From Bacteroidota bacterium (GTDB lineage: Bacteria > Bacteroidota > Bacteroidia > Chitinophagales > LD1), in contig JAOQAO010000137.1 in the NCBI GenBank assembly GCA_025963485.1, forward strand, positions 1-32,196: a stretch of DNA of 32,196 nucleotides, given 5' to 3'. Both the position numbers and the translations under genes were made by a program. Shown here one piece after another: positions 1-23,531 of this stretch (its first letter is position 1; each line of letters starts with the position of its first letter). The notes below the pieces were generated by a model, which was not told the DNA's origin, did not search any database, and saw only the letters and a program-made list of their open reading frames with translations.

Positions 1-3000
1 GTGCGCTGCATTCGTATCGCAGATCGAATAAACGAATGAGTCTATCGTGATCGGCGTCGTGAATGGTCCTGTAGGTGAATATACTACCTGGTTAGAAGCA
101 TTGTATCCGATATTACCGTGGGCCGTAGGGCCTGGGGTGATATTAGGGATAGTCAGCTGATCGCCATCCGGATCGAGGTCATTGGCCGCTACGTAAACTA
201 TGATGCCATGGGTAGTATCTGTCACCGCATAGTCCGTGTTAGCTACTGGCGCATGGTTAGGTGTACCTGTAGTATCGTAGATAGTTACAAATATTGTAGC
301 TGTATCGCAAAGTACATTCACGAAGTATGGTGAGTTGTCACATACTATTACTGTGAATGAATCTGAGCAAGTGCCACCTACCGGAGGGCAAGCCGGATCA
401 TTTGGTGTATAAACTCCTGTGCCATTGATGTGCGCATCAGGTGTCCATGTACCGTGTGAAGGACTGTTCGGATAGATATATGTGATCGGATCGCCGTTAG
501 GGTCAAATGCACCTGTAGAGATATTGACACCTACAGGGACACCCTTAGGAGTGCTCACGTGCTGATCCTGTACTACAGGCGGCTCGTTGCGTGGATCTAC
601 TACGATCGTGATATAGCTGGTGTCGCAGAGTGCCGGAGTACCATTATCACAAAGTATGATACAAGCATGGTCTATGCCGTAGAAGTTAGTATCCGGTTTG
701 TACGTCATGCACACCAGCGCAGGTGTATCGGTCACAGCCGGAGCTGAGATCCATATACCATGTGTAGGAGCGCAGAGCACACTGAACGTATGGTGATCGC
801 CGGCATCAGGATCTGTGTATGGCACACAGAAGGTGATGATACTGTCTTCCGGTACATGTACCAGTGTATCAGGTATCACCGGCGTATCGTTGACACATGT
901 TACGTTGACGAATACCAATCCAAGATCCCATGCTCTTTGGCCAGGGCACAGAGGTGATCCGTTCAGGCCGGTGATCTGGTACCCGAAGGTATCAGTACCG
1001 CAGAAGTCAGGATTTGGTGTGTAGATCAGTTGATTGTTCCACAACCTCAGCTTACCAAATGTAGGCTGTGCTGAGATGCTCACTGTGAGCGGATCGCCGT
1101 CTATATCGTAGTCATTTGCTACCACATTGATAGTATCTATATGGTCTTCGATCATAGTCGCGGTGTCATCCACTGCTACCGGAGCATGGTTTGTGATCAG
1201 GACATCCACTACCAGTTGAGCAGATGAACACATCACAGCACCCGCAGGGCATGTGCTGCATATCTGGTAGCTCACGGTATCCAATCCATGGAAGTAAGGA
1301 GCAGCCACATATTCTACATTGCCGCTTCTTGTGTTGAGGTAAGCAAATCCGTGGGCGCCATTAGCAGTTATGATGATAGTATCATTTCCAGAGTTGCCCG
1401 GATAATCATTGGCCAACACATTTGCACTGAGTATAGAACCTTCGCATACCGTATCGCGGTCATTGGCTGCGATAGGACCGACACAGGTATCCACTACGAA
1501 GATCGTGATGGTCGCAGTGTCATTGCAACGGTCAAGGCTATCAGTGACCCTGTAAAGGATATGATCGACACCTCTGTATCCGGCGGCGGCTGTGTAAGTG
1601 ATCGTTCCGTTAGCATTCAATACAGCAGTATTGCCCAGATCCGGTCCACTGAGTATCTGTACTGAGTAGCCTACTCCTATCACACCTACATACTGGTCGT
1701 TGATCAATTCGTTGATGACAACACCTATGCTATCACCATTGACGAAGTCAGCGACTGCATCAGGGCAGTGAGGTACATGGGTAACTACTATAGTCACAAT
1801 ACCTGTATCGCACAGTACCGGAGAACCATCATCACAAACTACATAACAGAATGAATCTGTACCGTAGAATGATGAAGCCGGAGTATAGTTGACACAACCT
1901 GTGCCTGAGATCACAGCCGTACCATGAGCAGGGCTGCATACTGCACCAACGGTGACTGACTGGCCCGCATCAGGATCGCTGAATGAAGGACAAACCAGTA
2001 TCGTCGAATCCTGTGGTATCGTCACAGTGGTATCAGGCGCATGAGGAGGATGATTGAGCAATGTGACATTGATATATACTGTAGCAGTCGCACAGAGTGG
2101 GCCACCCAATGCTACCGGAGTAGAATCGCAGATACTATACCTGAATGAATCTACACCTATGTATGTGCTGTTAGGCACGTATGTCACAGCACCTGTAGTC
2201 GGATCGATATTGGTCACGCTGCCCTGAGCAGGAGTAGAAACCAATGTAACTGAACCAGTATTCAGGTTGCCGTCAGGGTCTGAGTCGTTGCCAGCTACCG
2301 GGATCACTACCGGGGTCGACTGCGGAGTGGTAGCAAAATCAGTCACAGCCACAGGAGGATGCGGATTAGGAGTCACTATGACATATACTGTAGCTGTAGA
2401 GCACAGTGCCGGAACACTATTGTCGCATATAGTATAGCAGAAGCTATCCGTACCGAAGAATCCGTGTGTAGGTACATAGCAGATGTAGCCGTTAGGCGCT
2501 ATGCTGTTGGTACCGTGTGCAGGTGCACATGCTGATGTCACTTGTATCGGATTAGTGCCTGGTATATCGTTAGTGACCACGCGTACACAGACCGATGAGT
2601 CCTGAGGTATGCGTGCTGAGTCATTCACTGCTACCGGCGGCGTGCTCGGAGTACCAGTCACATTGATATAAACGATACCGGTATCACAAGTAGTACAAGC
2701 CGGATTCACACTGCATATAGAATATAAGAACTGGGCTTGTCCTACTGTTCCGTTAGGAGTGAACCTGATATTGGAACCTGATACTGCTACAGTACCAAGC
2801 GGAACCGGCTGAGTGAGTACGCTTACCACAAGTGCACTGGTAGTGTGGTTAGTATCATTCGCAGTTACATTGAGTGTAGCGCTTGATACCAGATGGAATA
2901 CAGTATATGAATCAACCACTGCTACCGGAGGTATACAAAGCGGAGTCACATGTATGTAGACCTTGTCAGTATCGCAGAGCGTAGGAACTACATTGTCGCA

Positions 3001-6000
3001 TATTACCACACATACTGTGTCATCACCTGTGAAGTCATGGTTAGGCACATAGGTGAGGCATGAGTCGCTGGTAGCGAATCCTACCGTACCATTGTTAGGT
3101 CCGCATGGGAATGATGTGACATGTACGCCATTACCATTAGCACCAGACACTGCAGGGCATATGGTGACCGGCGGTGAATTTTGCGGTATAGTATCATATG
3201 TAGGCGGTATATGCGGTGGATTGTGGATCACATGGATCGATACTAAACCTACATCGCAAAGCTGAGTATAAGTAGCACAGTACACAGCTGTAGGATTCAT
3301 CACATCGCACATCCTGTAGTAGAATGTATCGTCACCTGCATATCCTGCATCCGGTGTATATATGTATGAGTTGCCTACCTGAGTCGCCGTACCGTGTATC
3401 GGTGGAGTCACTACAGAGAGTGTAGTCGAGTCACCATCCGGTTCGAAGTCATTTGTAGTGACAGGGATATTGACAGCTGTCTGCATAGACGTGCTGGTCG
3501 TATCCTGTGCTGCAAGCGGCCTGTGGTTGATCAGGTTCACTGTATAGTGTACCCACGCTGTATCACAGAGGCTTGGAGTCCTGTTGTCACATACCTGGTA
3601 CTCGAGTGAATCCTGTCCAAAGAAGTACAAAGCAGGCAGGTATACTATAGAAGGACTGCTCACCGCTGCAAGGCCATGCGTAGGCGCTACGAGGATAGAG
3701 GTCACAGTAAGCGGATCTCCGTTTGGATCTATATCATTGCTCAATACATTGAGTATAGAGTAATCTTCCTCACAGAGAGTAGTGAAGTCATCTACCGCCA
3801 CAGGAGGCCTGTTGGTATGGATGATATTAGTATCAAACTTATTGATCGTGATATAAACGAAAGCCGTATCGCACAGTACATGTACGGTATGCAGTGCATT
3901 CGTATCGCAAAGTACGTAAGAGAATGTATCCACTACGATGCTGTCAGCGACAATAGCCGGTGCGGTGTAATTGACGGTATTGTTGATACCTATCGACACT
4001 GTACCTCCGAGAGATGTAGTAGCCGGAGTTACCACAGTCACGTTGATCGGATTACCATCCGGATCGCTGTCATTAGCCACGACATTGATATTGATGCTGG
4101 CGCCCGGAGCTGTAGATGTATGATCGTCCGTCGCTACAGGAGGATGATTCACCAGCGTATCGGCAGGGTTAGTCACATTGATGACCACATATGCCGTATC
4201 GCAAAGTACATGTACCGGATACGGTGATGTATCACAAACGCTGTAGGCAAATGAATCCACACCTATAAAGCCTGTAGGCGGGAAGTAGTTGACCGAACCA
4301 TTTCCTGTGACTACCACAGTACCACCTTGTGTAGTACCAGTACCATCAGGGTATGTATAGGTCAGCGGATCACCATTTGGATCGTATGCACCACTGGCTA
4401 CGTTCACACCTATTGGAGTGTTCTCAGGAGTGTTCAGGTAGATATCATTAGCTACCGGAGGCAGATTGAATCCCTGTACATAGATAAATGCCTTAGCAGT
4501 ATCGCAAAGTGGCGCAGGGCCATGAGCAGAAAGTGTATCGCAAATTACATATGTAAAGCTATCTACCGGCTGGCCGTTGATGCTGTGCAGATATGATACC
4601 GGAGTGTAAGTAACATCTCCGTTTGTAGCTACAGCGGTGATAGTTCCGTTTACCACACCTGTTATAATAACCGGCGTAGTCAATGGATTGCCATCCGGAT
4701 CGCTATCGTTAGCCTTCACATTGAGGGCATTGTTTGTTGAGTTCTCAGCTACTGTCAGGTGATCATCCACAGCCAGCGGTGGCCTGTTGCTTATCGGTGT
4801 ATCTACGACATTGTCGGTCACGATGAGCCATGCAGTTGCGCAAAGCGGTTGTGGAGCGACAGTAGTGATATCACATATCTGATAAGCTACACTATCATAG
4901 TATATGCCATTCGGCAGGCCACTGTTTGGTACAAGTGTAATAGTACCATCTGCATTCACTGTGAATGAGCCCGGTCCGTGCTGAGTGCCCGGGATCAGTG
5001 TAGGTATGGTCAGCGGGTTGCCATCTGGATCGCTGTCATTACCTCTCACATTTACAGTAGCCGGTGTAGCACCTGTCGTAGTAGCGTAGTCATTATTAGC
5101 TACAGGAGGATGATTAGGGCCTCCCGGAGTAGTGATCGTAGCTACGATCACACTTGTAGCGCAAAGTACATGTACCGGATACTGATCTGTATCACACACC
5201 TGATATGTGATGACATATGTGCCCGGTATAGAACCAGTGATGGTATATGCTCCGTTTCCTGTTTGGGTCACGGTCAGTCCCGATCCCGGAGGAATACTGA
5301 TTATCGAAATGGTCAGCGGATCACTGTTTGGATCGCTCACTGCCAGGAGGACATTCACATCATGTGGCGTATTTACCAGTTGTGTGTACCTGATAGTATC
5401 TGCAGTAGGAGGCAAATTCACCGGAGTTATATACACATACACCATTGCTGTATCGCAAAGCGGTGATGGTCCATGTATAGACAGCGTATCGCAAACACTA
5501 TAGCGGAAGCTATCGATCGGTTGGCCATTGACGCTGTGCACTCCTGTATTTGGTACATATACTACGTCACCATTGCTGCTCACAGATGTGATAGTGCCGC
5601 TGGTAGTCGCAGTCAATACTGTCGGCGTGCCGAGGGCATCACCATCAGGATCGCTGTCATTGCCTTTCACATTGATCGTGCTAGTAGTATTCTCAGCTAT
5701 TATCACGTGGTCATCCACAGCGAGTGGTGGCCTGTTAGCCGGAGTATCTATCACATTGGTAGTCACGATCAGGAGCGCACATGATGTGAGCGGCTGAGGA
5801 GCGACCGTAGTGATGTCATATATACAGTAGCTCACAGTATCATAGTAGATGCCCTGAGCCAGCGTTCCATTCGGCTGGAATGTCACTGTACCGTCCAGGT
5901 TCACTGTGAAGTGACCATGAGCAGTGACTGTACTTCCATTGAGTGCAGGAGTGCTGAGTGGGTCACCATCTGGATCGGTATCGTTACCTCTCACATTCAC

Positions 6001-6654
6001 GATAGCAGGCTGTATACCTGTAGTAGTAGCGTAATCATTGTTAGCTACCGGTGGATGGTTGACGGCTGTATTGACCGGGATGATATTTGCAAAGATCACG
6101 GCTGTATCGCACAGTACATGGACAGGATATTGATCTGTATCACATACCTGGTATACGATAGGGAATGTGCCTACAGTAGTACCAGTGACAGTATATGCAC
6201 CGTTTCCTGTCTGCGTGATAGTCAGCGTAGGATCATATGTGCCCACCAGACTGATCGTCAGAGGGTCTCCGTTAGGATCGCTGGTCGCCAGCAATACATT
6301 CACGTCATGCGGAGCATTCTGGAATGCAGTATAGCTGATCGTATCAGCTGTGGGAGGCAGGTTGCGAGGACAGATATAGATATATGCACGGCCTGTATCG
6401 CAATCGCTTGTACACTGCACATTGCATATCTGGTAAGTAACAGTGTCAAGGCCATGATAGCCGTATACCGGAGTGTAGCTTATGTTATTAGCTACAATAG
6501 TTGCAGTACCATAGTTAACCTTGAGGATACGAACAGTACTTACGTTACCTTCTGTGTCGGTGTCATTAGCCCTTACATCAAATGTAAATGATGTATTGAG
6601 GCAAGTGCTGTCATAGTCATCGTTGGCCACCGGTGGTTGATTGGTATGGATGAA
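1..6654 (-). repeat. Tandem-95 / cadherin-like domain array in the giant protein
   Basis: About 22 modules of roughly 100 residues each start with N(H/R/L)PPxAxxD, carry a calcium-type loop (NDSDPDGNPL or variants), and contain a paired-cysteine element such as YxVCD followed by LCDTA. Module starts lie near 6650, 6360, 6060, 5740, 5410, 5110, 4790, 4460, 4150, 3830, 3530, 3210, 2930, 2650, 2360, 2060, 1770, 1470, 1190, 880, 580 and 270. The DxDxDG-like loops suggest calcium-stabilised rods; this is inferred from the family. The array continues beyond the window. Confidence 0.85.
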
Positions 6655-9600
6655 TATGGTATCATTAAACGTACATCCCTGCAGTGAAGATATTACTGCA
6701 TAGTACCCGTGATTTATACGGGTAGGGCGTACAGTTATAGCATTAGGGTTATTAGTGATAAATGTTCCGTTCACATCATACCATAGTATAGTATTAATAA
6801 TCGGCAGTGATGCATAGTGAGGTGTCAATGTCGTAGCTGAGCCCTGGCAAACTGTATCGGCAGAAGCCGTGATCGTCATGGTCAGCGTTTTGTTCACCGT
6901 GATATTGACAGAAGCTGAATCCGAACATGCGCCTGCTGTGGCGATATGGTAGCGGATCGTGATCACAGTTGAGCTTCCATTAGGTATAGACACCAGGGAA
7001 GGATTAAACAATCCCGTCAGAGGGTTGATACCCGGACCTGACCATGTACCTCCTGCCGGAGTGCCGGTAAAGGTGGTAGCAGAATCCAGTGAGCAGTATG
7101 TGGCGCTATTGCCAGAGATGACCACGGTCGGAATTGTATCCACAACGACCTGCTGAGATGTATCATGTGTACATCCGTTTACGGTCAGGGTATAGGTGAT
7201 GTTATAAGTACCCGGTCCTACCTGTGCAGGGCGGAATACATAAATACCACCTCCTGTGTTCACCACACCGAAGCCGCTGAATGAACCACCCGGTATGCTC
7301 GCTGTGAGCGGCACTGATGCCACACTTGGGCAATAGTGAGCGTTGAGGCCTGTGATAGCAGGGTGAGGCAGAGCCTTCACTGTAATGGTCTTAGATTTGC
7401 TGGCCTGGCATCCGCTGGCGTCTGTCACGAGCACTGTGTATGGATAAGTACCCGCTACATCAGGGCTGGCCGTGACCACCTGAGAGAATGTATCAGACAA
7501 GAAGGCAGTAGGAGACCACAGATAGTTGTATGCTGCAACACCACCTGTGACATTGACCGTCAGGTCTACACTGCCACCGCTTCCTTCGCACCATGTGGTA
7601 GGACCATTGGTGCTGATAGTGATAGCGAGGGTCGCAGGAGTTACTATTACATTCATCGCATCACTGGCTGTACATCCATTGGTGTCAGTCACAGTTACTG
7701 TATATGTTGTATTAGCACCGAGGTGTCTTACATATGGATTGGCAGCAGTAGTATATCCATTGATACCAGCTGTAGGTGTCCAGCTGTAAGTGTAGCCTGG
7801 GGTACCCAAAGAACCGGTCGGTGATCCGCCTATCTGTATACTGTCTGTGCTACATGCAGGGATAGTATTATCCGGACCTGCATCAGCATGAGGCAGTGGA
7901 TAGACTACTACTGTATCATAGAGAGCAGGCGATGCACATCCGTTATAGTCGGCAGTATATGTAAATATAACCGTCAGCGGAGTGTTTGAAGGATTATTCA
8001 ATACCAGATTGACATTACCACCTATATTATTGAATCCTAATGTTGAAGTCCATCTGATCACTGCACCTGGTATGTTGGAGTGAACAGCTGCTACGTAATT
8101 CACGCCGCTACACAGATTGACAGGGAAGGAATCCACCACGAGAGTAGGTATTGGTTTGACCACTACAGGCACTCTGATGGTATCACTACATCCTCCCGGC
8201 ACTGTACCTACTACGGTATAGTAGATGAGGGAATCTGTAATTCCGTTATTGATCACAGTAGTAGCAGGTATGTTACCTGTTCCACTCGTTCCATTGGAGG
8301 CTGTCCATGAATATGTAGTAGACGCGAGGGATGAATTGAAGTTGACCAGATATGGGCTTCCGCTGCACACATTGACCGAGTCAGGTGTAGCAGTGATCTG
8401 AGGTGTTGGATTTACCGTCAGGTACATGGTATCATAGGCGCTTACAAATATTCCATTAGAGAAATAAGTCACTTTCAATACATACTGATAGACACCAGGG
8501 AAGTTGAGAATCACTGTAGGTTGTGCTATATTAGGAGAGTCAAGTCCCAATACAGGTGACCATGCATAAGTCACATTTAAGGTCTTGCTAAATCCTTGCA
8601 GTACCATAGGATTTCCGGCACAAACAAATGTATCCGGACCGGCATGTGCATCTGGCAGGCTCACTACCGTGACCTTCACAGAATCCACTCCTGAACACCC
8701 AAAATCATTGGTCACAGTCACATAGTAGACAGTGGTAATCACAGGGCTAGCTGTCGGGCTGGCACCGATATAAGAGCTGAGGCCCGGTATGTTGGCCCAG
8801 GTATATGTAGTGCCGCCGTTAGCACTCATCACTACACTACCCCCCAGGGCGATAGCTGTATCAGGTCCCGCATCTGCATGCACGACTGGGAAGCTGCTTA
8901 CCTGCACGTGAGAAGAATCAGTACAACCATATATGGTAGTCACAACCTGATAAGCGTCATGTACGGCAAACGAAGTATATACATAAGTAGGATTGCGCAG
9001 ATGTGAAGTATCTGACAATGTAGTGGTATCGCCAAAGTTGTAGAAGAATGAAGCAATAGGATCGGCAGATGTCGAGCGGTCCGTAAACTGAACGCGGTCA
9101 CCCACGCACTTCGTTTCAGCCTGGAAAGCAGAATTCGGCAAGCTATGTGTCACGACAAGCACAGTATCCGTACCTGAACAACCGGTGATCGAATCGGTGA
9201 TCACCACCCTGTATACAGTATTGCCTGGAGCTGGGGATGCCAGCGGGCTCGCACAGCTCACGCAGTTGAGGCCTGAACCAGGAGTCCAGCTGTAGCTATA
9301 GTTAGGGCCTAGCAGGTTGGGTACCAGGTGTACGCTGTCTCCTGCGCAAAGTGTCACCGGAGCGATATCCACGACCAGATTTGGTGTGATCCTCACCCGT
9401 ACAGTGTCGCTAGCCACGCATCCAAACTGATCCGTTCCCACCACAGTATATGTAGTGCTCGTATCTGGTTTTACGAATACGAAAGGTGAAGCACCGTTGG
9501 CCGGATTCATATGTACCAGCGGAGACCACTGGTATGACTGAGCTCCGGTAGCGATGAGCTGCGTTGTGGTTCCGAGGCATATACCCTGATCAGGGCCCGC

Positions 9601-12600
9601 ATCTACAGGAGGTGCATTATGCTTGGTGACCACTACTGAGTCAGAAGATGTACAGCCAGAAACTGCATCAGTCACTGTCACATAGTATGTAGTGGTAGTA
9701 GCCGTAGGTGTCACTGTAGGCGTGGCACTCGTAGAGTTGAAGCCTGCAGGATTAGAAGCCCACAGATATGTGTAGCTACCTGATCCGCCGGTGGCCACCT
9801 GGCCTATTTGCACAGATGTATCTGGAGCACAGAATGACTTATTCGGTCCTGCGTGAGCTACTGGCAGAGCGTAAACGTTTACGGTCTTAGTGGCACTAGC
9901 GCTGCAATTAGCTAAAGTATAGGTAACCGTATATGTAATAGTCGACGGTGGATTGACACTGATCGAAGCTGTATTGGCTGCGCTTGGAGTAATAAAAGCA
10001 TTCGGTGTCCACAGATAAGTACCTCCCGGAGGTGCACCTATAGCTGTGAGGGTAGTATTCTGACCTACGCACAGATTGGTATCAGCAGATGATATAGAAA
10101 CTGTCGACGTAGGATTAATAATAATGCGAGCTGAATCAGTAGCTGTACAACCTGATAAACTATCTGTCACCGTGAGGTGATATACAATATTGATAGCGGC
10201 GGTGTCAGCAACAGTAGGATTACCCGCTGTAGAGTCGCTCAGGTAGAGTGCTGGTGACCAGGTATAAATATAGTGGCCTGATCCGCCGGTAGCTGGTGGA
10301 TTATTACCTAGTGTAATACCTCCTGTGACAGGAAGACAGAAAGCCTGATTGCCTCCCGCGTGTGCAAATACCAGAGGATATACATGTACCGTCTGGAAAG
10401 CGGTATCATAACAGCCTGTGGCCTGAGTGATGGTATCTCCATCTTCATTTACAAAAGTGACAAACGTACCATACACCACGCGATAAATTACATCATTGCT
10501 GATCGGAGTAGTGGTGATCGTAGGAGTATTGCCCGCTGGCGGAGTGAAGAAACCTGAAGGCTGCCACTGATAGCTGCCTCCCGCTGGTGTACCAGAAGCT
10601 GTCAGCGTCGTAGTCTGACCGGCACATAAGCTGGTATCTGTGGAAGATATGGTCACAACCGGTTTAGGTGTGAGCGTAATGATAGCGCTATCAATAGATA
10701 TACAGCCGGTTATATTATCCGTAACTGTAACTGTATAGGTAACAGCGCCCGGAGTAGTCAGCGAATCCACACGAGGCCTGGCTATAGTGCTGTCGCTCAC
10801 ATATGTACCTGGAGACCACCTGTAGGTGAAGTTTCCTGATCCGCCTGTAGCAGGATTACCCACTCTGACGATAGATGGTGCAGGTAAGCAATATGTCTGA
10901 TTGCCGCCGGCATTGGCTACTGGCTGAGCATAGGTATGTACAGTGATCGCCGCTGTATCCCTACATCCATTGAGGTTATAATATACAAAGTAAGTCTGAG
11001 ATCCTGAAGCTGGTGCAACAGCCACCACCTGCGCATTTCCGTTTGCAGGAGTCATCGCGATGATAGGGTTCCACTGATAGTTGCCTCCTGCTGGGGTACC
11101 AATGGCTATGAGGATAGCTGATTCAGTGAGGCATATATCTGTCTTAGGGCTGGATACAGTGACTGTGGTCTGAGGAGCTATATTCAGCGTCATACTGTCT
11201 ACAGCTGTACAGCCAGTGACAGCATCTGTGACGAGCACATAATATTTGCGCGTGTCGGCTACGACAGAATCCAGTGATGGATTGGACGAAGTAGAATCAG
11301 TCAAATTAATATTCGGATACCATGCATAAGTGTAGCTTCCTGAACCACCGGTAGCAGTATTAACCGCACCGAGCGTCACTGAGCCAGAGACAGGTAAGCA
11401 ATATGTCTGATCACCACCGGCATGTGCTACCACCACCGGATAAACGTATACATTCTGATATGCCGTATCCCTACATCCATTTCTGGTGTATACTAACTGG
11501 TATACTTGATTTGAAATAGGCGATACAGTGACCGACTGCGTATTGCCTGTACCAGGATTGAGATAAATAATTGGTGCCCACTGGTAGCTGCCTCCGGTAG
11601 GATTTGCGACACCGGTCAGAACAGTGCTCTGCCCGAAGCACAGATTAGTATCTGTCACATTGATAGACAATGTCGCATGTGTATCTATAAAGAGATGTGA
11701 AGAGTCAACCGAAGTACAACCTGTAACATTATCTGTCACGGTCAGGTAGTATTCTATATTCGTGTTAACCTTAGTTACTATTGGATTTGGAGCCATCGAG
11801 TCACTCAGATTGGTAGTCGGTGACCAGTGGTAAGAATAGTTGCCCGAACCACCAGTGGCTGCGGAGCTAGATCCGAGGAAGATGTTGCCAGCAAATGGCA
11901 AACAGAATGACTGGTCAATACCCGCGTGAGCTATGACAGGTGTATAAACATTGACTGTCACAGCGGTAGAGCCGGCACATCCAGCTGCAGTATAAGTGAC
12001 CTGGTACCTCTGAGTACCTGATGGTGCGACAATAACAGAAGCTGTATTGCCCAATCCCGGATTCATATTGAATGTAGGACTCCACTGATAAGACCCACCA
12101 GCAGGTGAGCCAATGGCAGTAAGAGTGGTCGTCTGGCCCGAACAGATATCAGTATCTCCCGGAGCTATGGTCACCGTAGCAGTTGGATTGATGGTCAGCG
12201 TCATAGACGACACATCGGTACAACCGGAAACGGTATCTGTGACTGTGACGCTATATATAGTAGTACCCGCGACAGCTGTGGTGATCGTAGGATTAGCCAC
12301 AGTGGTGCTGCTGAGATTAGTAGCTGGTGACCAGGTATATCTGTAAATACCAGATCCCGATGAGGCAGTTGGATTGCCTCCAATAGTAATGGTAGAGGCC
12401 ACCGGTAAACAGAAGTTCTGATTAGGTCCTGCGCTGGCTACCGGAGTAGGGAAAACTCTGACGGTCTTGTATGCCGTATCGCTACATGATCCCTGGAAGT
12501 AAATGACCTGATATGTCTGTGTGCCGGTAGGTGTGACAGTCACTACAGCAGTGTTGCCTGCACCTGGTACTATATTGACCAGTGGTGCCCACTGATATGT

Positions 12601-15600
12601 GCCTCCACCCGGACTGCCTACTGCGGTCAATACAGCCGATTCGCCAGTACAGAGATCTGTATCGACAGACGATACAGACACTGTAGGCTGAGCCAGTATG
12701 GAAAGGTGTGTAGAATCAAGTGATGTACATCCTGTGACCACATCAGTCACCACAAGCCTGTATTCAAGGCTGGTAGCACCGCTGACTGTGACAGTAGGAT
12801 TAGCTGCGGTAGCACTGCTCAGGTTAGTAGCAGGTGACCACAAATATGAATAGCTGCCCGATCCGCCTGTGGCTGCCGGGCTCGCTCCAAGAGTGACCGT
12901 ACTGGTCACAGGGAGACAGATAGACTGATCAGTTCCTGCATGAGCTACAGGATTTGCGTTGACCGTAACAAACACAGAACTTGTGGCGCTGCAATTATGC
13001 AGATCTGTGACAGTCACAGAATATGGCGTATTGGTAGCAGGGGTTGCTATAGGATTTGCTATTGCAGTTGAGTTGAGCCCAGTACCCGGAGACCATGAAT
13101 AAACGAATGATCCTGATCCTCCGCTTGCGGTAGGGTTGCCGCCGATAGTATCTCCGAAGCCATTACATACAGCTACGTTAGGACCGGCACTGGCGGTCAC
13201 TGCAGGCCATACGTCGAGGCGAACAGTATCACTTGCGTTACATCCGTTACCGTCTGTGACATTGAGTGTATATACATAAACACCTGCTGCCGATGGATTG
13301 GCTACAGTAGATATTGCATTAGTAGGCGTGAGATTTGCAGTAGGTGTCCAATCATAAGTAAATGGCGGTGTGCCTCCCGTCAAAGTACCGTTAAATGTAG
13401 CACTGCCTCCGCTGTTTGCACAGTAGCTGGCATTCACGCCTGCACCGACCTGCATAGAAGAGGTGATGACATTGACCTTCACTGAAGCTACAGCCGTACA
13501 GCCCTTAGCATCAGTGACAGTCACTGTATAAGTAGTATTGGAAGCTATGTGGCTGACGTTAGGGTTGGATACATTAGAGAAATCCAATCCGCCGGTCGGG
13601 CTCCACAAGTATGTATATCCTGGTGTACCACCGCTACCAGTAGCAGGTGTACCACCTATGCTGACAGAAGCAGCACTACAATCAGTAAGTGTCTGCAGTG
13701 GACCTGCATCTGCTGAAGGTTTTGGATTGACAGTAACAAGAACAGAGCTAATGGCGCTGCAAGACTTGCTATCAGTTACGGTCAGGGTATAAGTAGTATT
13801 AACTATAGGCGAAGCTGTCGGGTTTGGAATAGTCGTACCGCTCAACCCTGTACCAGGTGACCAGCTGTAAGTAAGTGTACCCGTACCACCGCTGCCTGCC
13901 GGCAGGCCACCTATCGGCACGCCAGAACCGGAGCATACAGAAGTAGATGATCCCGCGTTAGCTATCACTGCGGGATTGAGGGTCAGGGTCATGGAGTCTA
14001 CAGATGAACAACCTGAGACATTGTCTGTGACAGTGACAAAATATTTTACGGTACTCGCTACATTAGATGTGAGAGTTGGGTTAGCGACATTGGTAGCGCT
14101 CAAACGTGTAGCTGGAGACCAGCTGTATGAGAAACTGCCTGAGCCTCCTGAAGCAGTGGGGCTGCCGCCAAGAGTAATAGTCGGAGCATAAGGCATACAA
14201 TATGTCTGATTGCCGCCGGCACTTGCTACTACTGCAGACACTACATTGACCGTCTTGTGTGCAGTCCCGCTACATCCTGTAGTGGTATAGGTCACATTAT
14301 ATGTCTGGCTGCCCACCGGAGGAGAAACAGATACCACGGCAGTATTGCCTGCACCCGGAGTCATATTGGTCAGAGGTGACCACTGATAGGTACCACCTGC
14401 CGGAGAGCCTGATGCAGTAAGGACTGCGGCCTGACCAGCACAAAGATTGGTATCAGGAGATGAAATAGACACTGTAGCCTGAGAATTGATAGTCAGAACC
14501 ATAGAGTCCACAGAAGAGCAGCCAGATCTGGTATCTGTGACGGTGACATAATATGTAATGCTGCTGGCAACAAAACTTGTAATAGTCGGATTGGCCACAG
14601 TCGTGCTGCTCAGGCGGGTATTAGGGGACCAGGCATAAGTGAATGTGCCGGATCCTCCATTGGCTGTCGGGCTACCACCTATAGATACAGGTCCGGCAAC
14701 GGGTAAGCAATAAGTTTGGTCTGCACCTGCATTTGCGGTAACGTTTGGATAGACGTTTACAGTTTTGGAAGCTGAGTTGGTACAGCCTGCCAGAGAGTAC
14801 ACCACAGTGTATGTCTGGTTAGCCGAAGGTGCTACAGATACTGTAGCTGTATTGCCAGCTGGTGGGGTCATGCCCACTGTAGGACTCCAGGAATATGCAC
14901 CGCCTGCAGGAGTACCTGTGGCAGCCAATGATGTAAACTGGCCAAGGCAAAGATCAGTATCTGAAGGTGCAATGCTGACAGTGACACTTGGATTGATAGT
15001 GAGCTTCATGGAATCTACAGAAGTACATCCTGTGAGATTGTCTGTAACGGTGACATAATAAGTGGTCGTGCTGGTCACTATCGAAGTGATGGTCGGGTTG
15101 GCGACATTGGTAGCACTCAGACGCGTAGGAGGCGACCATGCATAAGAGAAATTGCCGGAGCCACCTGATCCGGTCTGGAAGCCACCTATGGTGACTGTGG
15201 TACTCACATTGGAGCAATAAGTCTGATCGACCCCTGCATCAGCTGTGACGACAGGATAAACTGTCACCGTACGATTAGCAGAAGAATTACATCCGCCTAA
15301 GGAGTAAACTACAGTATATACCTGAGTGGACGCCGGAGATACAGTGACCGCTGCACCGACACCATTGGCAGGGACCATAGCTACGAGAGGTGACCACTGG
15401 AAGGTGCCTCCCGCTGGACTGGCGCTCGCTGTCAATACTGTGCTGTTTCCCACACAAATATTGGCAGTAGCAGGTGTGATCGTCACAGACCCCGGCTGCG
15501 TAGTCACTACCACATTGGCGGTATCGCTGCATCCGGTTGAGTTGGTCCAGAGGAAACGATAAGTACCCACAGCACTGAAACTGGAAATAGTCGTAGTCGG

Positions 15601-18600
15601 GCTCGTCGGTGTCGTAATAGTAGCTGTACCGGGATTGCCGGCTATAGCAAACCATGTACCTGAACCTGTAGCAGACATAGTAGCTGTACCGACGACGCAA
15701 ACCGTTTTGTCAGTACCCGCATCAGGCTTGATACATATCTGGTAATCTTCTACCTCACCTGCCTGTATCTCACCGGTATCGCTGACCGATGTCATCGCAC
15801 CATCCGATAAACGCAGGCGGAGGAATGTATTGCCTGTACCATAAACTACAGGCACTAATCCTGAAAAGTTTAAAGTAATTGTTTGCTGGCTCGTACTGGT
15901 TGGTACGTTTACCGTAGCATATTCTGTAAGATCAAAGATGTGGTTGTTATTAGCATCCAACCATCCTGCGAGTTGTACTGTACCTCCTGTATTATTGAAA
16001 GCAGAAACTGAAACTGAATAAGTAGTAGCACCGGTAGTCAACATCGGAACTACCGCTACGCCGTCCTCATCATCAGCTGATCCGGAATTATTAGCATCAT
16101 CTCCCGTAGCAGCAGTCGAGCTGAAAGGAGCAGACTCTGCATCTATCGTAGCGCCTAAATTCAGCTTGACACTGAGGGCCGATTTTGCAGGATGACCCTG
16201 CTCATAAGTAGATGGAGCATCACCATAATCAAAAGTATTTGGATCCCATTCAAAGATAAAGTGGTTGTCATTGCCACTGGCTCCTCCGGTTTTATCGAAA
16301 CCCGGAATATTTGTGATCCACTGAACCGGAACAGATGTTTCGTTTGAGTGTATAGTCGTACCGATATTGATGAGGCCTGTGGTCAAATTATAAAACAGGT
16401 GACCGCTACCTCTTAGTACACCAGTACTACCCAGATAATCATTACCACTACCACCGATGAATGTACCATAGCTCCTGATGGAAAGGTCATTGCTAAAGCT
16501 ACCATAGCTAATATCATAAGTACCGCCGCCAAATACATTCTGATAGTACGGGCTGGCAGGAGTAGTCTGCAGTACAGGAAAATCCGCGTTGGATGATGTG
16601 GTACCGAAAAGGAGTACATCACTGGAGCGGAAGTCTACTGCAATACCACCCACGAGATCCACTTTGGATCCACCATTATATGTAGAAGCAAAACCAGTAC
16701 CTGAAGTACCATTCCATGGTATCCTTGAGATAAACTCATCTATACCACCTTTAAGTGCAGGCTGCACACCAGTGGCTCTGCCAGGGATATCAGTAGAATA
16801 TGTATTGCCGCCTACGTAGAAATAATTATTGTCGGCGCATACTACCGCCTTATCAGACTGAGGCACATCACCTACGCGACCTTCATCACCACTACCTCCC
16901 AGATATGAGAATACTGAAAATGCTGTTTGCGGAGTAGCGCTGACAGGGATCACCCCGACGAGTACTTCCGTAGTACCGGCAGCACCCGGAGTAGCATCTA
17001 CTGCATTGGCAGTAGTGGCAGGGTAACCTGTACCTACAATAGTATGAACAGCAAAAGCCAGCTTGCTGTGATCATTAGAGAGTGCGATAGAGGCGAAACC
17101 TTCTGAGTTGCTTCCACCTACATAAGTACCCCATGTGGCCAACGGCGCTACCGGAGACGAATTAACGTTGGTAATACGCATGATGAGTCCCTCTGATGTA
17201 CCTGCAAAAGTCGGGTCTGGTGCATTGGCCGGAACGATAGTCGAATATGCCGAGGTAGTAACACCGCTTATATAAAATGTAGCGTCATCGACGATACATA
17301 CTGATTGGTAATTTGCATTGGCAGGTTTGGTGCCGGAAGAATTGACTGAACCTGTATAAAACTGGGCGGCAAGTGTATTTGAGTAGATCTGCACAAGGTC
17401 CTGGGAGTATGCCACGAGTACCCGTCCGTTTGGAAATATATCCAGGTCAGTAGGTACCAAAGGAAGCGGAGTGGTCTGACCGTTATTGACCGTGACTATG
17501 ATACCAGTATAAGTCCATGCCAGGATAGCTGTACCCGCAGTATTAAATTTGTATATGACACATTCTGAAGTCGTGCCACTCGTACCAGCACCTGTGCTGG
17601 AAGCAGTATAGCTGCCATTGAAACCAGCCGCCACACCGCTCATATAAGCAGATGACAAAGCCTGGTCAGTCACACCTGCGCAATATGTTTCACCAGCAGG
17701 GTTGGATGCTACAGCGTAGAGATATTCATCAAAGATATTGCTGGCATTCATCATAAATGATGACCAGATCATCACCGGGTCAATGACGAGCGGCATGTTT
17801 GGATCTATTTTGCCTGTGACCTTATAGCCTATGGTTTTGTCATCACCTGTTTTGACCACGCTGGCCTTGAGTATATTCTTATTGCCATCTATGATCTGGT
17901 AGGTCTCGGGAGTGATCATCTTCATATCATAATCATGAAGCTTGATCTCAAGGTTTCCTTCCTTGCCGATATTCAGGCCATCCTGGCCGTTGAAGTTGAT
18001 CTTTATTTTCTCATAGTCCGAAGCCTTGCTCACGAGCCAGTCAAACTCCATCGCACCTGCCTCACCGGAATATAAACGGAGGTCGATGCCTGGGTATACG
18101 TTTTTCAGCGTGATCTCATTATAAAGGTCAGGGTGCATACCCTTGCCATTTTCAAAATATGAACCAATGGTAGCTGATTTGCTGCCCGGCTGTACTGTCC
18201 AGTTGTTAGGTGACCCAGGGAAAGTGATATCTACTATATGAAGTTCAGTTTTATCATCCTCATCTTTTTCGATCTCGCCTGGATTTTCTCCCTCGCCCTG
18301 TCTGGTCACGAGACGGAGCTTATTGTGGTACACACCCATGCTACCGAAGTGAGTACGGAAACCATACATCACATCCGGATTGTGGAATTGCCCGGCGTTT
18401 TGCTCAAAGAATATCTGATTGGTACTTTTCCTCAGAACATTCATCATTGCCTGCTTTACATCAGGGGTCACATCACTCGATGTGTGTTCCGATTTGCCGG
18501 GAGCGTCCAGCTTCATACTTGAGGCACCGGTAGGCGTATAGGCCTGCGCGTAGGCGTACGATGACTGCTGCGCAAACATGGCGGTAGATGCCATCGCAAA

Positions 18601-18639
18601 TAGAAATGCCAGAAATCCGTGAGTAAACTTCTTCATCAT
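1..18639 (-). CDS. Giant secreted adhesin-like multidomain repeat protein (C-terminus beyond the window)
   Basis: One frame stays open from the ATG at 18639 to the window edge, giving 6,213 codons with no stop. I translated it at many points along its length and the phase agrees throughout, so there is no net frameshift. Residues 1-23 form a signal peptide (MMKK, hydrophobic core, cleavage after AMFA). Domains in order: DUF7948-like (about 75-290, with FEQNAGQ), SBBP-type propeller-like repeats (about 290-800, with YLGGSGDEG and FIGGSGNDY), GEVED (about 800-970, with FDYGDAPSTY and GEVEDYQICI), PKD/Ig-like repeats with VTVTDxxxGC (about 973-3995), and tandem-95/cadherin-like repeats with NDSDPDGNPL (about 3996-6213). 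No membrane segment follows the signal peptide. In Bacteroidota such proteins are usually exported by type IX secretion and act in adhesion or matrix building. The sorting domain that would prove this would lie beyond the left edge. Surface location and adhesion are inferred. The second ATG, at 18636, is an equally possible start. Confidence 0.93.
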   Translation of the reverse strand, partial: MMKKFTHGFLAFLFAMASTAMFAQQSSYAYAQAYTPTGASSMKLDAPGKSEHTSSDVTPDVKQAMMNVLRKSTNQIFFEQNAGQFHNPDVMYGFRTHFGSMGVYHNKLRLVTRQGEGENPGEIEKDEDDKTELHIVDITFPGSPNNWTVQPGSKSATIGSYFENGKGMHPDLYNEITLKNVYPGIDLRLYSGEAGAMEFDWLVSKASDYEKIKINFNGQDGLNIGKEGNLEIKLHDYDMKMITPETYQIIDGNKNILKASVVKTGDDKTIGYKVTGKIDPNMPLVIDPVMIWSSFMMNASNIFDEYLYAVASNPAGETYCAGVTDQALSSAYMSGVAAGFNGSYTASSTGAGTSGTTSECVIYKFNTAGTAILAWTYTGIIVTVNNGQTTPLPLVPTDLDIFPNGRVLVAYSQDLVQIYSNTLAAQFYTGSVNSSGTKPANANYQSVCIVDDATFYISGVTTSAYSTIVPANAPDPTFAGTSEGLIMRITNVNSSPVAPLATWGTYVGGSNSEGFASIALSNDHSKLAFAVHTIVGTGYPATTANAVDATPGAAGTTEVLVGVIPVSATPQTAFSVFSYLGGSGDEGRVGDVPQSDKAVVCADNNYFYVGGNTYSTDIPGRATGVQPALKGGIDEFISRIPWNGTSGTGFASTYNGGSKVDLVGGIAVDFRSSDVLLFGTTSSNADFPVLQTTPASPYYQNVFGGGTYDISYGSFSNDLSIRSYGTFIGGSGNDYLGSTGVLRGSGHLFYNLTTGLINIGTTIHSNETSVPVQWITNIPGFDKTGGASGNDNHFIFEWDPNTFDYGDAPSTYEQGHPAKSALSVKLNLGATIDAESAPFSSTAATGDDANNSGSADDEDGVAVVPMLTTGATTYSVSVSAFNNTGGTVQLAGWLDANNNHIFDLTEYATVNVPTSTSQQTITLNFSGLVPVVYGTGNTFLRLRLSDGAMTSVSDTGEIQAGEVEDYQICIKPDAGTDKTVCVVGTATMSATGSGTWFAIAGNPGTATITTPTSPTTTISSFSAVGTYRFLWTNSTGCSDTANVVVTTQPGSVTITPATANICVGNSTVLTASASPAGGTFQWSPLVAMVPANGVGAAVTVSPASTQVYTVVYSLGGCNSSANRTVTVYPVVTADAGVDQTYCSNVSTTVTIGGFQTGSGGSGNFSYAWSPPTRLSATNVANPTITSIVTSTTTYYVTVTDNLTGCTSVDSMKLTINPSVTVSIAPSDTDLCLGQFTSLAATGTPAGGAYSWSPTVGMTPPAGNTATVSVAPSANQTYTVVYSLAGCTNSASKTVNVYPNVTANAGADQTYCLPVAGPVSIGGSPTANGGSGTFTYAWSPNTRLSSTTVANPTITSFVASSITYYVTVTDTRSGCSSVDSMVLTINSQATVSISSPDTNLCAGQAAVLTASGSPAGGTYQWSPLTNMTPGAGNTAVVSVSPPVGSQTYNVTYTTTGCSGTAHKTVNVVSAVVASAGGNQTYCMPYAPTITLGGSPTASGGSGSFSYSWSPATRLSATNVANPTLTSNVASTVKYFVTVTDNVSGCSSVDSMTLTLNPAVIANAGSSTSVCSGSGVPIGGLPAGSGGTGTLTYSWSPGTGLSGTTIPNPTASPIVNTTYTLTVTDSKSCSAISSVLVTVNPKPSADAGPLQTLTDCSAASVSIGGTPATGSGGTPGYTYLWSPTGGLDFSNVSNPNVSHIASNTTYTVTVTDAKGCTAVASVKVNVITSSMQVGAGVNASYCANSGGSATFNGTLTGGTPPFTYDWTPTANLTPTNAISTVANPSAAGVYVYTLNVTDGNGCNASDTVRLDVWPAVTASAGPNVAVCNGFGDTIGGNPTASGGSGSFVYSWSPGTGLNSTAIANPIATPATNTPYSVTVTDLHNCSATSSVFVTVNANPVAHAGTDQSICLPVTSTVTLGASPAATGGSGSYSYLWSPATNLSSATAANPTVTVSGATSLEYRLVVTDVVTGCTSLDSTHLSILAQPTVSVSSVDTDLCTGESAVLTAVGSPGGGTYQWAPLVNIVPGAGNTAVVTVTPTGTQTYQVIYFQGSCSDTAYKTVRVFPTPVASAGPNQNFCLPVASTITIGGNPTASSGSGIYRYTWSPATNLSSTTVANPTITTAVAGTTIYSVTVTDTVSGCTDVSSMTLTINPTATVTIAPGDTDICSGQTTTLTAIGSPAGGSYQWSPTFNMNPGLGNTASVIVAPSGTQRYQVTYTAAGCAGSTAVTVNVYTPVIAHAGIDQSFCLPFAGNIFLGSSSAATGGSGNYSYHWSPTTNLSDSMAPNPIVTKVNTNIEYYLTVTDNVTGCTSVDSSHLFIDTHATLSINVTDTNLCFGQSTVLTGVANPTGGSYQWAPIIYLNPGTGNTQSVTVSPISNQVYQLVYTRNGCRDTAYQNVYVYPVVVAHAGGDQTYCLPVSGSVTLGAVNTATGGSGSYTYAWYPNINLTDSTSSNPSLDSVVADTRKYYVLVTDAVTGCTAVDSMTLNIAPQTTVTVSSPKTDICLTESAILIAIGTPAGGNYQWNPIIAMTPANGNAQVVAVAPASGSQTYFVYYNLNGCRDTAAITVHTYAQPVANAGGNQTYCLPAPSIVRVGNPATGGSGNFTYRWSPGTYVSDSTIARPRVDSLTTPGAVTYTVTVTDNITGCISIDSAIITLTPKPVVTISSTDTSLCAGQTTTLTASGTPAGGSYQWQPSGFFTPPAGNTPTITTTPISNDVIYRVVYGTFVTFVNEDGDTITQATGCYDTAFQTVHVYPLVFAHAGGNQAFCLPVTGGITLGNNPPATGGSGHYIYTWSPALYLSDSTAGNPTVADTAAINIVYHLTVTDSLSGCTATDSARIIINPTSTVSISSADTNLCVGQNTTLTAIGAPPGGTYLWTPNAFITPSAANTASISVNPPSTITYTVTYTLANCSASATKTVNVYALPVAHAGPNKSFCAPDTSVQIGQVATGGSGSYTYLWASNPAGFNSTSATPTVTPTATTTTYYVTVTDAVSGCTSSDSVVVTKHNAPPVDAGPDQGICLGTTTQLIATGAQSYQWSPLVHMNPANGASPFVFVKPDTSTTYTVVGTDQFGCVASDTVRVRITPNLVVDIAPVTLCAGDSVHLVPNLLGPNYSYSWTPGSGLNCVSCASPLASPAPGNTVYRVVITDSITGCSGTDTVLVVTHSLPNSAFQAETKCVGDRVQFTDRSTSADPIASFFYNFGDTTTLSDTSHLRNPTYVYTSFAVHDAYQVVTTIYGCTDSSHVQVSSFPVVHADAGPDTAIALGGSVVMSANGGTTYTWANIPGLSSYIGASPTASPVITTVYYVTVTNDFGCSGVDSVKVTVVSLPDAHAGPDTFVCAGNPMVLQGFSKTLNVTYAWSPVLGLDSPNIAQPTVILNFPGVYQYVLKVTYFSNGIFVSAYDTMYLTVNPTPQITATPDSVNVCSGSPYLVNFNSSLASTTYSWTASNGTSGTGNIPATTVINNGITDSLIYYTVVGTVPGGCSDTIRVPVVVKPIPTLVVDSFPVNLCSGVNYVAAVHSNIPGAVIRWTSTLGFNNIGGNVNLVLNNPSNTPLTVIFTYTADYNGCASPALYDTVVVYPLPHADAGPDNTIPACSTDSIQIGGSPTGSLGTPGYTYSWTPTAGINGYTTAANPYVRHLGANTTYTVTVTDTNGCTASDAMNVIVTPATLAITISTNGPTTWCEGSGGSVDLTVNVTGGVAAYNYLWSPTAFLSDTFSQVVTASPDVAGTYPYTVLVTDASGCQASKSKTITVKALPHPAITGLNAHYCPSVASVPLTASIPGGSFSGFGVVNTGGGIYVFRPAQVGPGTYNITYTLTVNGCTHDTSQQVVVDTIPTVVISGNSATYCSLDSATTFTGTPAGGTWSGPGINPLTGLFNPSLVSIPNGSSTVITIRYHIATAGACSDSASVNITVNKTLTMTITASADTVCQGSATTLTPHYASLPIINTILWYDVNGTFITNNPNAITVRPTRINHGYYAVISSLQGCTFNDTIFIHTNQPPVANDDYDSTCLNTSFTFDVRANDTDTEGNVSTVRILKVNYGTATIVANNISYTPVYGYHGLDTVTYQICNVQCTSDCDTGRAYIYICPRNLPPTADTISYTAFQNAPHDVNVLLATSDPNGDPLTISLVGTYDPTLTITQTGNGAYTVTGTTVGTFPIVYQVCDTDQYPVHVLCDTAVIFANIIPVNTAVNHPPVANNDYATTTGIQPAIVNVRGNDTDPDGDPLSTPALNGSTVTAHGHFTVNLDGTVTFQPNGTLAQGIYYDTVSYCIYDITTVAPQPLTSCALLIVTTNVIDTPANRPPLAVDDHVIIAENTTSTINVKGNDSDPDGDALGTPTVLTATTSGTITSVSSNGDVVYVPNTGVHSVNGQPIDSFRYSVCDTLSIHGPSPLCDTAMVYVYITPVNLPPTADTIRYTQLVNTPHDVNVLLAVSDPNSDPLTISIISIPPGSGLTVTQTGNGAYTITGSIPGTYVITYQVCDTDQYPVHVLCATSVIVATITTPGGPNHPPVANNDYATTTGATPATVNVRGNDSDPDGNPLTIPTLIPGTQHGPGSFTVNADGTITLVPNSGLPNGIYYDSVAYQICDITTVAPQPLCATAWLIVTDNVVDTPISNRPPLAVDDHLTVAENSTNNALNVKANDSDPDGNPLTTPVIITGVVNGTITAVATNGDVTYTPVSYLHSINGQPVDSFTYVICDTLSAHGPAPLCDTAKAFIYVQGFNLPPVANDIYLNTPENTPIGVNVASGAYDPNGDPLTYTYPDGTGTTQGGTVVVTGNGSVNYFPPTGFIGVDSFAYSVCDTSPYPVHVLCDTAYVVINVTNPADTLVNHPPVATDDHTSTAPGASININVVANDSDPDGNPINVTVVTPATTSLGGTVSIGINNTVNYTAPAIVADSIVVDTFSYVLCDTNALHTVHVLCDTAFVYITINKFDTNIIHTNRPPVAVDDFTTLCEEDYSILNVLSNDIDPNGDPLTVTSILVAPTHGLAAVSSPSIVYLPALYFFGQDSLEYQVCDNRTPSLCDTAWVHYTVNLINHRPLAAQDTTSTSMQTAVNIPVTTNDFEPDGDSTTLSVVTPPIHGTATQVGNSYIYTPDAGYAGDDTFYYRMCDVMNPTAVYCATYTQLCDVGLVSIHVIHNPPHIPPTYDTIPQNSPPVTICPAVSGANGNGVHVTSFPCGPNNGTVGFATSDSCLTYVPNHDFTGDDTVCVVICDNVVPTLCDTDKVYIHVTPLCIPPVAVVDSYTVFHLVSSATLNVTANDTNHTTSALVVSVLTQPVPLGTVAVSGSNIRFTPNGTVGQAQFLYSICSVNPACTTCDTGIVYINVTGTPSTPPVAVNDSARIPQDSSVCVRVVTNDIPGTNPIQVTSACAPAHGTNSIAPNGYICYVPTHGFFGTDSFCYTICDNSVPALCSTATVYVIVTPNPHPPVAVTDFATTPQSTPVVIPVAGNDSDPDGNLNTGSVTLVSTPAQGSVTNIDPTTGAVTYVPNSTYIGVDSFRYSICDSTPVALGGPLCATATVYINVTLLNHPPHAPDTTVTIPQDSTILVCPSFSDPDAGQSVTVGAVCSPAHGTAVISGTGCVNYTPASSFYGTDSFCYVVCDDGSPVLCDTGIVTIVVTHVPHCPDAVADFVNGDSIGVVINELINDQYVGVIGVGYSVQILSGPDLGNTAVLNANGTITYTAAAGYRGVDHILYRVTDSLDRCNDTATITIFVVDTCVGPIAANDRDTVCEGSILSANVLANDYPGNSGNDTIIITANGAHGFAYLNTRSGNVEYVAAPYFHGLDTVSYQICSTCPAGAVMCSSAQLVVDVLITNHAPVAVDDTATMIEDHIDTINVVANDYDIDGDPLTVSISAQPTFGKLRLWNNQLIYTPNPDFCGTDTFGYQITGLNGSPLCPGQRAWDLGLVFVNVTCVNDTPVIPDTLVHVPEDSIITFCVPYTDPDAGDHHTFSVLCAPTHGIWISAPAVTDTPALVCMTYKPDTNFYGIDHACIILCDNGTPALCDTSYITIVVDPRNEPPVVQDQHVSTPKGVPVGVNISTGAFDPNGDPITYIYPNSPSHGTWTPDAHINGTGVYTPNDPACPPVGGTCSDSFTVIVCDNSPYFVNVLCDTATIFVTIYDTTGTPNHAPVANTDYAVTDTTHGIIVYVAANDLDPDGDQLTIPNITPGPTAHGNIGYNASNQVVYSPTGPFTTPITIDSFVYSICDTNAAH
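3530..6360 (-). repeat. Three-domain super-repeat of about 950 bp, three copies
   Basis: Within the tandem-95 array the module openings cycle NLPP, NHPP, NRPP. Cycle starts lie near 6360, 5410 and 4460, ending near 3530, so periods are about 950, 950 and 930 bp. Copies 1 and 2 are the most alike: NLPPTADTI, NHPPVANNDYATTTG and NRPPLAVDDH recur in the same order. Copy 3 is more diverged. This indicates duplication of a three-module block rather than of single domains. Confidence 0.8.
9830..12935 (-). repeat. Two-domain tandem repeat of about 505 bp, long block
   Basis: A landmark encoding (Q/N)xx(Y/F)C recurs at 9830, 10337, 10889, 11399, 11903, 12410 and 12924. Successive spacings are 507, 552, 510, 504, 507 and 514 bp. 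Each unit is about 168 residues and has one module with LCxGQxTxLTAxGxPAGG plus one with GGSGxYxYxWSP and VTVTDxxTGCTSVDS. All spacings are multiples of three or nearly so, allowing for small in-frame indels. The 552-bp unit carries an extra insertion. Confidence 0.85.
14190..15500 (-). repeat. Two-domain tandem repeat of about 505 bp, short block
   Basis: The same landmark recurs at 14199, 14708 and 15214, so spacings are 509 and 506 bp. The modules match those of the long block at 9830-12935. The blocks are separated by about 1.2 kb of single, less similar PKD-like modules (about 12960-13970), which breaks the alternation. Confidence 0.8.
15725..16240 (-). other. GEVED domain of the giant protein
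   Basis: Residues about 800-970 begin with FDYGDAPSTYEQGHPAKS and include DDEDGV, GWLDANNNHIFD and the closing GEVEDYQI. These are the defining motifs of the GEVED domain, found in large extracellular proteins. It marks the junction between the propeller-like N-terminus and the PKD-like array. Confidence 0.85.
16240..17769 (-). other. SBBP-type beta-propeller-like segment of the giant protein
   Basis: Residues about 290-800 contain degenerate blades with the SBBP pattern: a GG(S)G-type turn, a central acidic stretch, then a (Y/F)xxG(x)T strand. Examples are TYVGGSNSEG, YLGGSGDEGRVGD with FYVGGNTYS, and FIGGSGNDY. I could follow roughly five to seven blades. A propeller fold is inferred from the repeat pattern. 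Confidence 0.6.
17770..18417 (-). other. DUF7948-like N-terminal domain of the giant protein
   Basis: This covers residues about 75-290. It starts with FEQNAGQFHNPDVMYGFR and ends near PLVIDPVMIW. That opening and ending are typical of the domain preceding SBBP beta-propeller repeats in large secreted Bacteroidota proteins. Its molecular role is unknown. Boundaries are approximate. Confidence 0.7.
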
Positions 18640-20615: not shown

Positions 20616-20646
20616 ATTGCTTACGTTTTATTTAGAAAGAAGTCCG

Positions 20647-20654
20647 CAAATGTA
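20647..20654 (-). promoter_or_regulatory. -7 promoter element of pckA
   Basis: On the minus strand this reads TACATTTG, a full TAnnTTTG match ending 31 bases before the pckA ATG. I see no good -33 TTG at the usual distance; the nearest CAAA (forward strand, 20665) is only 10 bases away. Confidence 0.45.
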
Positions 20655-20682
20655 AAAAAAAGAACAAACTCGGACTGCTGAC

Positions 20683-20712
20683 TTTAATCTTAATTTGCTT
20701 TACCTACATTTG
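20683..20712 (+). promoter_or_regulatory. Promoter of the Xaa-Pro aminopeptidase gene
   Basis: TACATTTG at 20705-20712 matches TAnnTTTG exactly. A partial -33 element, TTTA, lies at 20683-20686, 18 bases upstream. The start codon at 20737 follows 24 bases later, implying a short leader. Confidence 0.5.
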
Positions 20713-20736
20713 CCCCATACACATTTCAAATTTAAC

Positions 20737-22060: not shown

Positions 22061-22090
22061 GATGGATACATCTCGCCTATCAACACATAC

Positions 22091-22861: not shown

Positions 22862-22874
22862 ATCAATATCTCAT

Positions 22875-23129: not shown

Positions 23130-23135
23130 GGCTTT

Positions 23136-23520: not shown

Positions 23521-23531
23521 ATTTTGCATTA

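Follow-up and report, generated by a model that had tools for sequence, protein, structure and literature searches.

A reading frame that fills more than half of a contig and then leaves it without a stop codon raises the question of whether it belongs to a real gene and, if it does, where that gene ends and what its product is for. The window considered here, 32,196 bp from an uncultured member of the Bacteroidota, makes up the whole of contig C7, in an assembly of 279 contigs (4.5 Mb, 91% complete). The frame lies on the minus strand and runs from an ATG at 18639 to base 1, comprising 6,213 codons with no stop, before passing off the left edge; in 20 shuffled windows of equal composition the longest frame was no more than 223 codons. 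This agrees with the preliminary description, in which 1-18639 had been read as a single unfinished frame of over 6,200 residues. The frame is already open before 18810, upstream of this ATG. The product begins MMKKFTHGFLAFLF..., and the congeners keep an identical 'THSNSNMMKKFT' context, which supports the start first proposed, at 18639.

The gene is unfinished in the window because the end of contig C7 cuts it. When the final 800 residues of the frame are searched against the genome, a 42-residue match, 100% identical, appears right where contig C239 begins, and bases 1–127 of the window, read on the minus strand, are identical to bases 1–127 of that contig. This overlap is exact, and C239 holds the sole other copy of the 127-mer in the assembly; 127 bases is a typical assembler k-mer. 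Other continuations of the C7 end were rejected, as the 127-mer has no further copy, and of the examined contigs with tandem-95 repeats near an end none besides C239 overlaps C7. The frame goes on in C239 to a stop that ends at base 2605, the remaining 825 codons lying there. The 5′ part of the gene (1–18639, minus strand, 18,639 bases, supported by the open frame, the exact overlap and the collinear orthologues described below) and its last 2,478 bases (C239, L043:128–2605) together give a gene of 21,117 bases and a product of 7,038 residues, with a predicted mass of about 728 kDa after removal of the signal peptide. The join is based on the one k-mer overlap and on comparison with orthologues.

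Two congeners carry uninterrupted orthologues on single contigs, of 7,022 residues in G005 and 7,004 residues in G006, the latter on a 780-kb contig. A three-way alignment is collinear over the full length, with approximately 70% identity, few gaps and no disruption at the junction between the two contigs. The flanks also agree, with a phosphoenolpyruvate carboxykinase gene upstream and genes for a PorP/SprF-like shuttle and a PorE-like protein downstream. Collapse of repeats is unlikely, since the sequence of the gene contains no N bases and no tandem arrays at the DNA level, and its exact internal repeats reach 24 bp at most. Estimates of dN/dS are between 0.04 and 0.20 for the head, the GEVED domain, both repeat arrays and the sorting domain (0.04 for the head between G005 and G006), ratios that are approximate, dS being near saturation in several comparisons. 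Given the collinear orthologues, matching flanks, lack of long repeats and low dN/dS, we conclude that the gene is intact and under purifying selection.

It could still be argued that the long frame as a whole, or else just the join of C7 with C239, is an assembly artefact, or that the gene is a decaying pseudogene: the contigs are short, a contig end interrupts the gene, and in one congener, G002, the equivalent locus encodes only 1,986 residues. Set against two intact single-contig orthologues that are collinear over about 7,000 residues, an overlap that is both exact and unique, the absence of any exact internal repeat longer than 24 bp and the selection acting on the folded blocks, this explanation is hardly credible and we reject it. 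An internal stop or collapsed or misjoined repeats, named in the preliminary description as findings that would overturn it, are likewise made unlikely by the collinear orthologues. The gene is real and conserved, its product has about 7,000 residues, and the window holds its first nine-tenths.

Upstream of the giant gene, at 18993–24258, are housekeeping genes for PEP carboxykinase, aminopeptidase P, a CDP-alcohol phosphatidyltransferase and a TP_methylase (RsmI-like), conserved in order in the congeners; PEP carboxykinase adjoins the giant gene also in a member of another genus (G014). Further along, the gene for a heavy-metal-associated (HMA) domain protein (27074–27433, minus strand) overlaps the 5′ end of a gene for a TonB-dependent receptor (25093–27177, minus strand), which suggests a putative metal uptake pair. 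Two genes are murein-active by family, one for a glycosyl hydrolase of family 25, of lysozyme type (28131–28967, plus strand), and one for an LD-carboxypeptidase of family S66 (30983–31876, minus strand).

The N-terminal 25 residues of the giant protein (MMKKFTHGFLAFLFAMASTAMFAQQ; 18565–18639, minus strand) form a probable Sec signal peptide, with n, h and c regions that appear typical by eye and a hydrophobic character that is conserved in the congeners. Beyond it the head begins with a DUF7948 domain (residues 78–289; 17773–18408, minus strand), matched by PF25778 at 128 bits (E 5.6e-37). In its ENKGQ-type motif the N, G and Q are invariant in 70 homologues. The following residues, about 292–800 (16240–17766, minus strand), are predicted to form a beta-propeller of SBBP-like type, on the basis of an AlphaFold2 model, its structural alignment and a profile match. 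The model covers residues 60–800, was built on 70 homologues and has a pLDDT of 83 and a pTM of 0.71; it supersedes an earlier prediction that used 12 sequences and reached a pLDDT of 57. The preliminary description had assigned a DUF7948-like segment with an SBBP propeller. The first of these is borne out by the Pfam match and the propeller by the predicted model, but Pfam SBBP itself gives no match at E 0.01 in the giant frame.

Comparisons with known propellers place the predicted fold closest to CylK. Superposition with VIA-align gives a Z score of 33.5, with an rmsd of 2.5 over 373 aligned residues, against 28–29 for other propellers, so that CylK stands approximately 4 units above unrelated ones, and the profile of the 70 homologues matches CylK at E 1.6e-36. 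In the model, and by profile similarity, the head fits the SBBP/CylK-type propellers. CylK is an alkylating enzyme, and these same two matches are what speaks for an enzymatic head. The CylK match is limited to the propeller (CylK residues about 250–652), however, and the family consensus has Gly rather than His in the column of CylK His391, with an uncertain repeat register; a single-sequence search also found nothing. We therefore disfavour a CylK-like enzyme, principally on the Gly at the His391 column, and regard it as very improbable. Heads of the DUF7948 and propeller type occur also in frames of about 1,200 residues in Chitinophagaceae and other Bacteroidota (L114, L118, L127, L142, L144 and others), which sometimes adjoin one another as paralogues.

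The head is followed by a GEVED domain (residues 890–968; 15736–15972, minus strand; PF20009, 47 bits) and then by two long repeat arrays. The first, of PKD-like and Ig_7 domains, extends over residues about 971–3990 (6670–15729, minus strand); PF22352 and PF19081 score above cut-off, the array was also followed with an iterative HMM, and its PKD-like domains are K319L-like by Pfam and NCBIfam. The second is a tandem-95/Big_9 array that occupies residues 4000–6213 in the window (1–6642, minus strand) and extends to about residue 6935 on C239, with 22 Big_9 copies on C7 and 6 on C239, 28 in all. PF17963 scores 756 bits over this array, and the tandem-95 model NF012211 gives 428 bits in the C7 part and 139 bits in the C239 part; with both above the cut-off of 90 bits, the giant is a tandem-95 repeat protein. 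The domain databases are thus in accord with the arrangement that had been read from the translation, in which GEVED, PKD-like and tandem-95 segments follow one another in a single chain. Near the end of most tandem-95 units are paired cysteines, 7–15 residues apart, whose spacing suggests a putative local disulfide. Repeats of the SprB type (PF13573) appear in the giant frame only below cut-off. Altogether about 60 beta-sandwich domains, PKD/Ig-like and then the 28 tandem-95 units, probably make up a stalk of 0.2–0.3 micrometre, a length estimated from domain type alone.

The extreme C-terminus, encoded on C239 and ending at the stop, carries a type B sorting domain of the type IX secretion system (T9SS) at residues about 6950–7038. 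Its final 85 or so residues score 81 bits with CHU_C (cut-off 27) and 52 bits with TIGR04131 (cut-off 35), and the orthologues have the same domain in the same place. The preliminary description expected the sorting signal and partner genes to lie to the left; of the two kinds of signal it named, the gliding-motility type is the one present, and Por_Secre_tail is not the sorting signal of this protein. The M1 peptidase encoded three genes downstream of the giant carries a type A tail.

The partner genes are indeed found on C239. A 337-residue protein of the PorP/SprF family is encoded 73 bp downstream of the giant gene (PF11751, 221 bits; TIGR03519, 218 bits, cut-off 90.55), and after this shuttle comes a 735-residue PorE-like protein with the domain order TPR, PD40, CarboxypepD_reg, OmpA. 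The latter falls below the curated cut-offs for PorE (359 of 600) and CHU_0125 (507 of 620), and inspection of its N-terminus revealed no lipobox. The association extends to related genera: giant and PorP-like genes occur together in all 10 complete loci compared, and a protein of PorE-like size, position and C-terminus comes next in each of the 9 loci whose contig continues. The genome also encodes SprA (TIGR04189, 2,453 bits, cut-off 200), with 34 CHU_C matches, 14 PorP-like matches and GldJ-like sequences. With its type B domain and partner genes, the protein fits the preliminary reading of a secreted Bacteroidota protein of adhesin type. A second large type B/tandem-95 protein (L046, C3:20311–24604) reaches towards the end of its contig and has its own PorP/SprF-like gene downstream (C3:19264–20247), 52% identical, and contig C276 also begins inside a CHU_C tandem-95 gene.

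Published work shows that export of a type B domain requires a cognate PorP/SprF shuttle, whose gene commonly stands immediately downstream; both SprB and PG1035 have been found bound to their own shuttles (PMC12618676, PMC9143113). The mobile adhesin SprB of Flavobacterium johnsoniae has the shuttle SprF, in which a Cys-X-Cys motif in the C-terminal tail forms a disulfide with GldK in the gliding track and is required for that linkage (PMC12635249). The mobile substrates of F. johnsoniae have no porE-like neighbour (PMC12618676, PMC9143113), whereas Fjoh_3952 does have one, is static, and has been proposed to be tied to the cell wall through the PorE-like protein (PMC12618676). A complex of PorE, PorP and a type B protein has been identified in Porphyromonas gingivalis (PMC9143113).

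The shuttle encoded here has no cysteine in the window's genome or in four congeners, and no Cys-X-Cys motif in 16 homologues. As it lacks this motif and a PorE-like gene adjoins it, we consider it likely that the giant is a 7,038-residue surface adhesin, exported as a type B T9SS substrate and statically anchored to the wall. While the domains, sorting signal, partner genes, SprA gene and conservation, with the accompanying purifying selection, are read from sequence, the export route, shuttle pairing and static anchoring are modelled on the F. johnsoniae and P. gingivalis systems. The protein would leave the cytoplasm by Sec through its N-terminal signal; its C-terminal type B domain would be read by the T9SS and the chain would pass the SprA translocon, after which the PorP/SprF-like protein would receive the type B domain and keep the giant at the outer membrane. 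The PorE-like protein could then tie the shuttle to peptidoglycan, leaving the filament static and not driven along gliding tracks. Such tethering is proposed by analogy, since the PorE-like protein scores below the cut-offs and has no lipobox, whereas PorE is a lipoprotein. The stalk would hold the DUF7948 and propeller head off the cell, where, to judge from its domain type, position and fold, it would bind a surface, a polymer or a neighbouring cell.

Comparisons with named systems show where this arrangement is familiar and where it departs from them. The closest likeness is to Fjoh_3952/Fjoh_3951/Fjoh_3950 of F. johnsoniae, a static adhesin with its shuttle and PorE-like protein (PMC12618676), which has the same gene order and a type B domain; the likeness is one of gene order and sorting domain, the head and stalk domains of the giant not being known to match. 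In the PG1035/PorP/PorE system of P. gingivalis (PMC9143113) a type B protein is likewise held by PorP, which binds the peptidoglycan anchor PorE, but the PorE-like protein here is under the curated cut-off and has no lipobox. The SprB/SprF pair of F. johnsoniae (PMC12635249, PMC9870892) resembles the present one in that a giant type B substrate gene is followed directly by one of the SprF family, and differs in the shuttle tail, the adjacent porE-like gene and the SprB repeats, which are below cut-off here. Salmonella SiiE (595 kDa; PMC6272769) also has a stalk built of many Ig-like domains in a row, although it uses type I secretion and is anchored differently.

Two alternatives to a static adhesin have to be weighed. 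The giant could be mobile and serve in gliding as SprB does, with its PorP/SprF-like shuttle moving it on GldJ/GldK tracks, and the type B domain of the giant, its adjacent SprF-family gene and its size near that of SprB would suit this role, as would the GldJ-like sequences in the genome. What speaks against it is the cysteine-free shuttle, which can have no Cys-X-Cys tail, together with the porE-like gene, which has no counterpart beside the mobile substrates of F. johnsoniae (PMC12618676, PMC9143113). The motif is absent, moreover, from the last 60 residues of all 14 PorP-like ORFs (2 of them fragments) of this 91%-complete genome, and the sub-threshold SprB repeats point the same way. We consider gliding quite unlikely. 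Several of the PorP-like paralogues (L206, L208, L210, L211, L213 and L215) have a short tail with a single cysteine and no Cys-X-Cys, the cysteine often standing before proline (CPIF, CPKF, CPRF).

The other alternative is that the giant is a structural matrix or surface coat, or a released protein, whose function lies in bulk and spacing and not in ligand binding. Repeats do make up most of the mass, genera differ in the order of the blocks and in length, one congener retains a short form, and the identity of the head drops to 23–31% outside the genus. Yet every complete homologue examined has a related head with an ENKGQ-type motif, the head is strongly constrained between G005 and G006, and partners of PorP-like and PorE-like type suggest that the protein is anchored rather than released. 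This alternative is unlikely as well, and a statically anchored adhesin remains our preferred interpretation.

Comparisons across genomes show how the parts of this adhesin have evolved. Complete homologues with a PorP-like gene downstream have 7,071 residues in G021, 7,449 in G013, 8,345 in G057, 7,028 in G007, 7,286 in G011 and 6,235 in G014. Size and order had been thought to make the protein an outlier. Its size does not, because lengths are comparable in relatives of the same genus, family and order (6,235–8,345 residues) and SprB itself has 6,497 (PMC9870892). As to the order of the arrays, among the genomes compared only those of the window's genus place PKD-like domains before tandem-95; elsewhere the segment that best resembles the PKD block follows tandem-95 repeats (for example residues 3739–5790 in G021, against about 1036–3084 here). 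Within the genus, the window's genome, G005 and G006 retain the same stalk, one unit after another. The head is matched nearly in full (about residues 60–968) at 32–36% identity in G008, G013, G018, G021, G023, G024, G026 and G057, and more weakly or partially elsewhere. In the set of complete homologues the last 138 residues are 43–82% identical, and the best head alignments outside the genus reach 23–31%.

Length is not strictly conserved even in the genus. The congener G002 has the same neighbours around a protein of only 1,986 residues (G002:C309:15876–21848, L191), which consists of the head as far as approximately residue 646, a set of 12 tandem-95 repeats and the sorting domain; the PKD block is missing. 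PKD-like stretches elsewhere in G002 are at most 49% identical among the best matches, and some are on contigs with their own shuttle genes. The short form could reflect either a genuine reduction or a fault of the assembly; because the locus is kept with a protein that lacks the PKD block, full length is perhaps not essential.

Among the papers searched, none describes a family with the architecture of the giant; apart from its great size, the protein is an ordinary new member of a class of bacterial adhesins already known. We suggest, tentatively and at somewhat less than even odds, that an uncultured family of Bacteroidota retains a static, wall-anchored filament of 6,000–7,500 residues, encoded next to PEP carboxykinase in the window's genus and in one other, which combines a fixed anchor module (C-terminal domain, shuttle and PorE-like protein) with a diverging head and a stalk whose blocks are reordered or lost between genera and mostly frozen within a genus.

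What looked like an endless frame running off a contig has proved to be a genuine gene of 21 kb, and an uncultured lineage gains a conserved giant adhesin and its partner set. The locus lends itself to testing a recent proposal, namely that static type B adhesins can be told from gliding ones by a porE-like neighbour; by extension, absence of the twin cysteines of SprF would likewise mark the static ones. The comparisons also document the evolution of a giant repeat protein that is nearly frozen within a genus and rearranged between genera. If the proposed family is real, it would constitute a surface system with a fixed anchor and a changeable arm.
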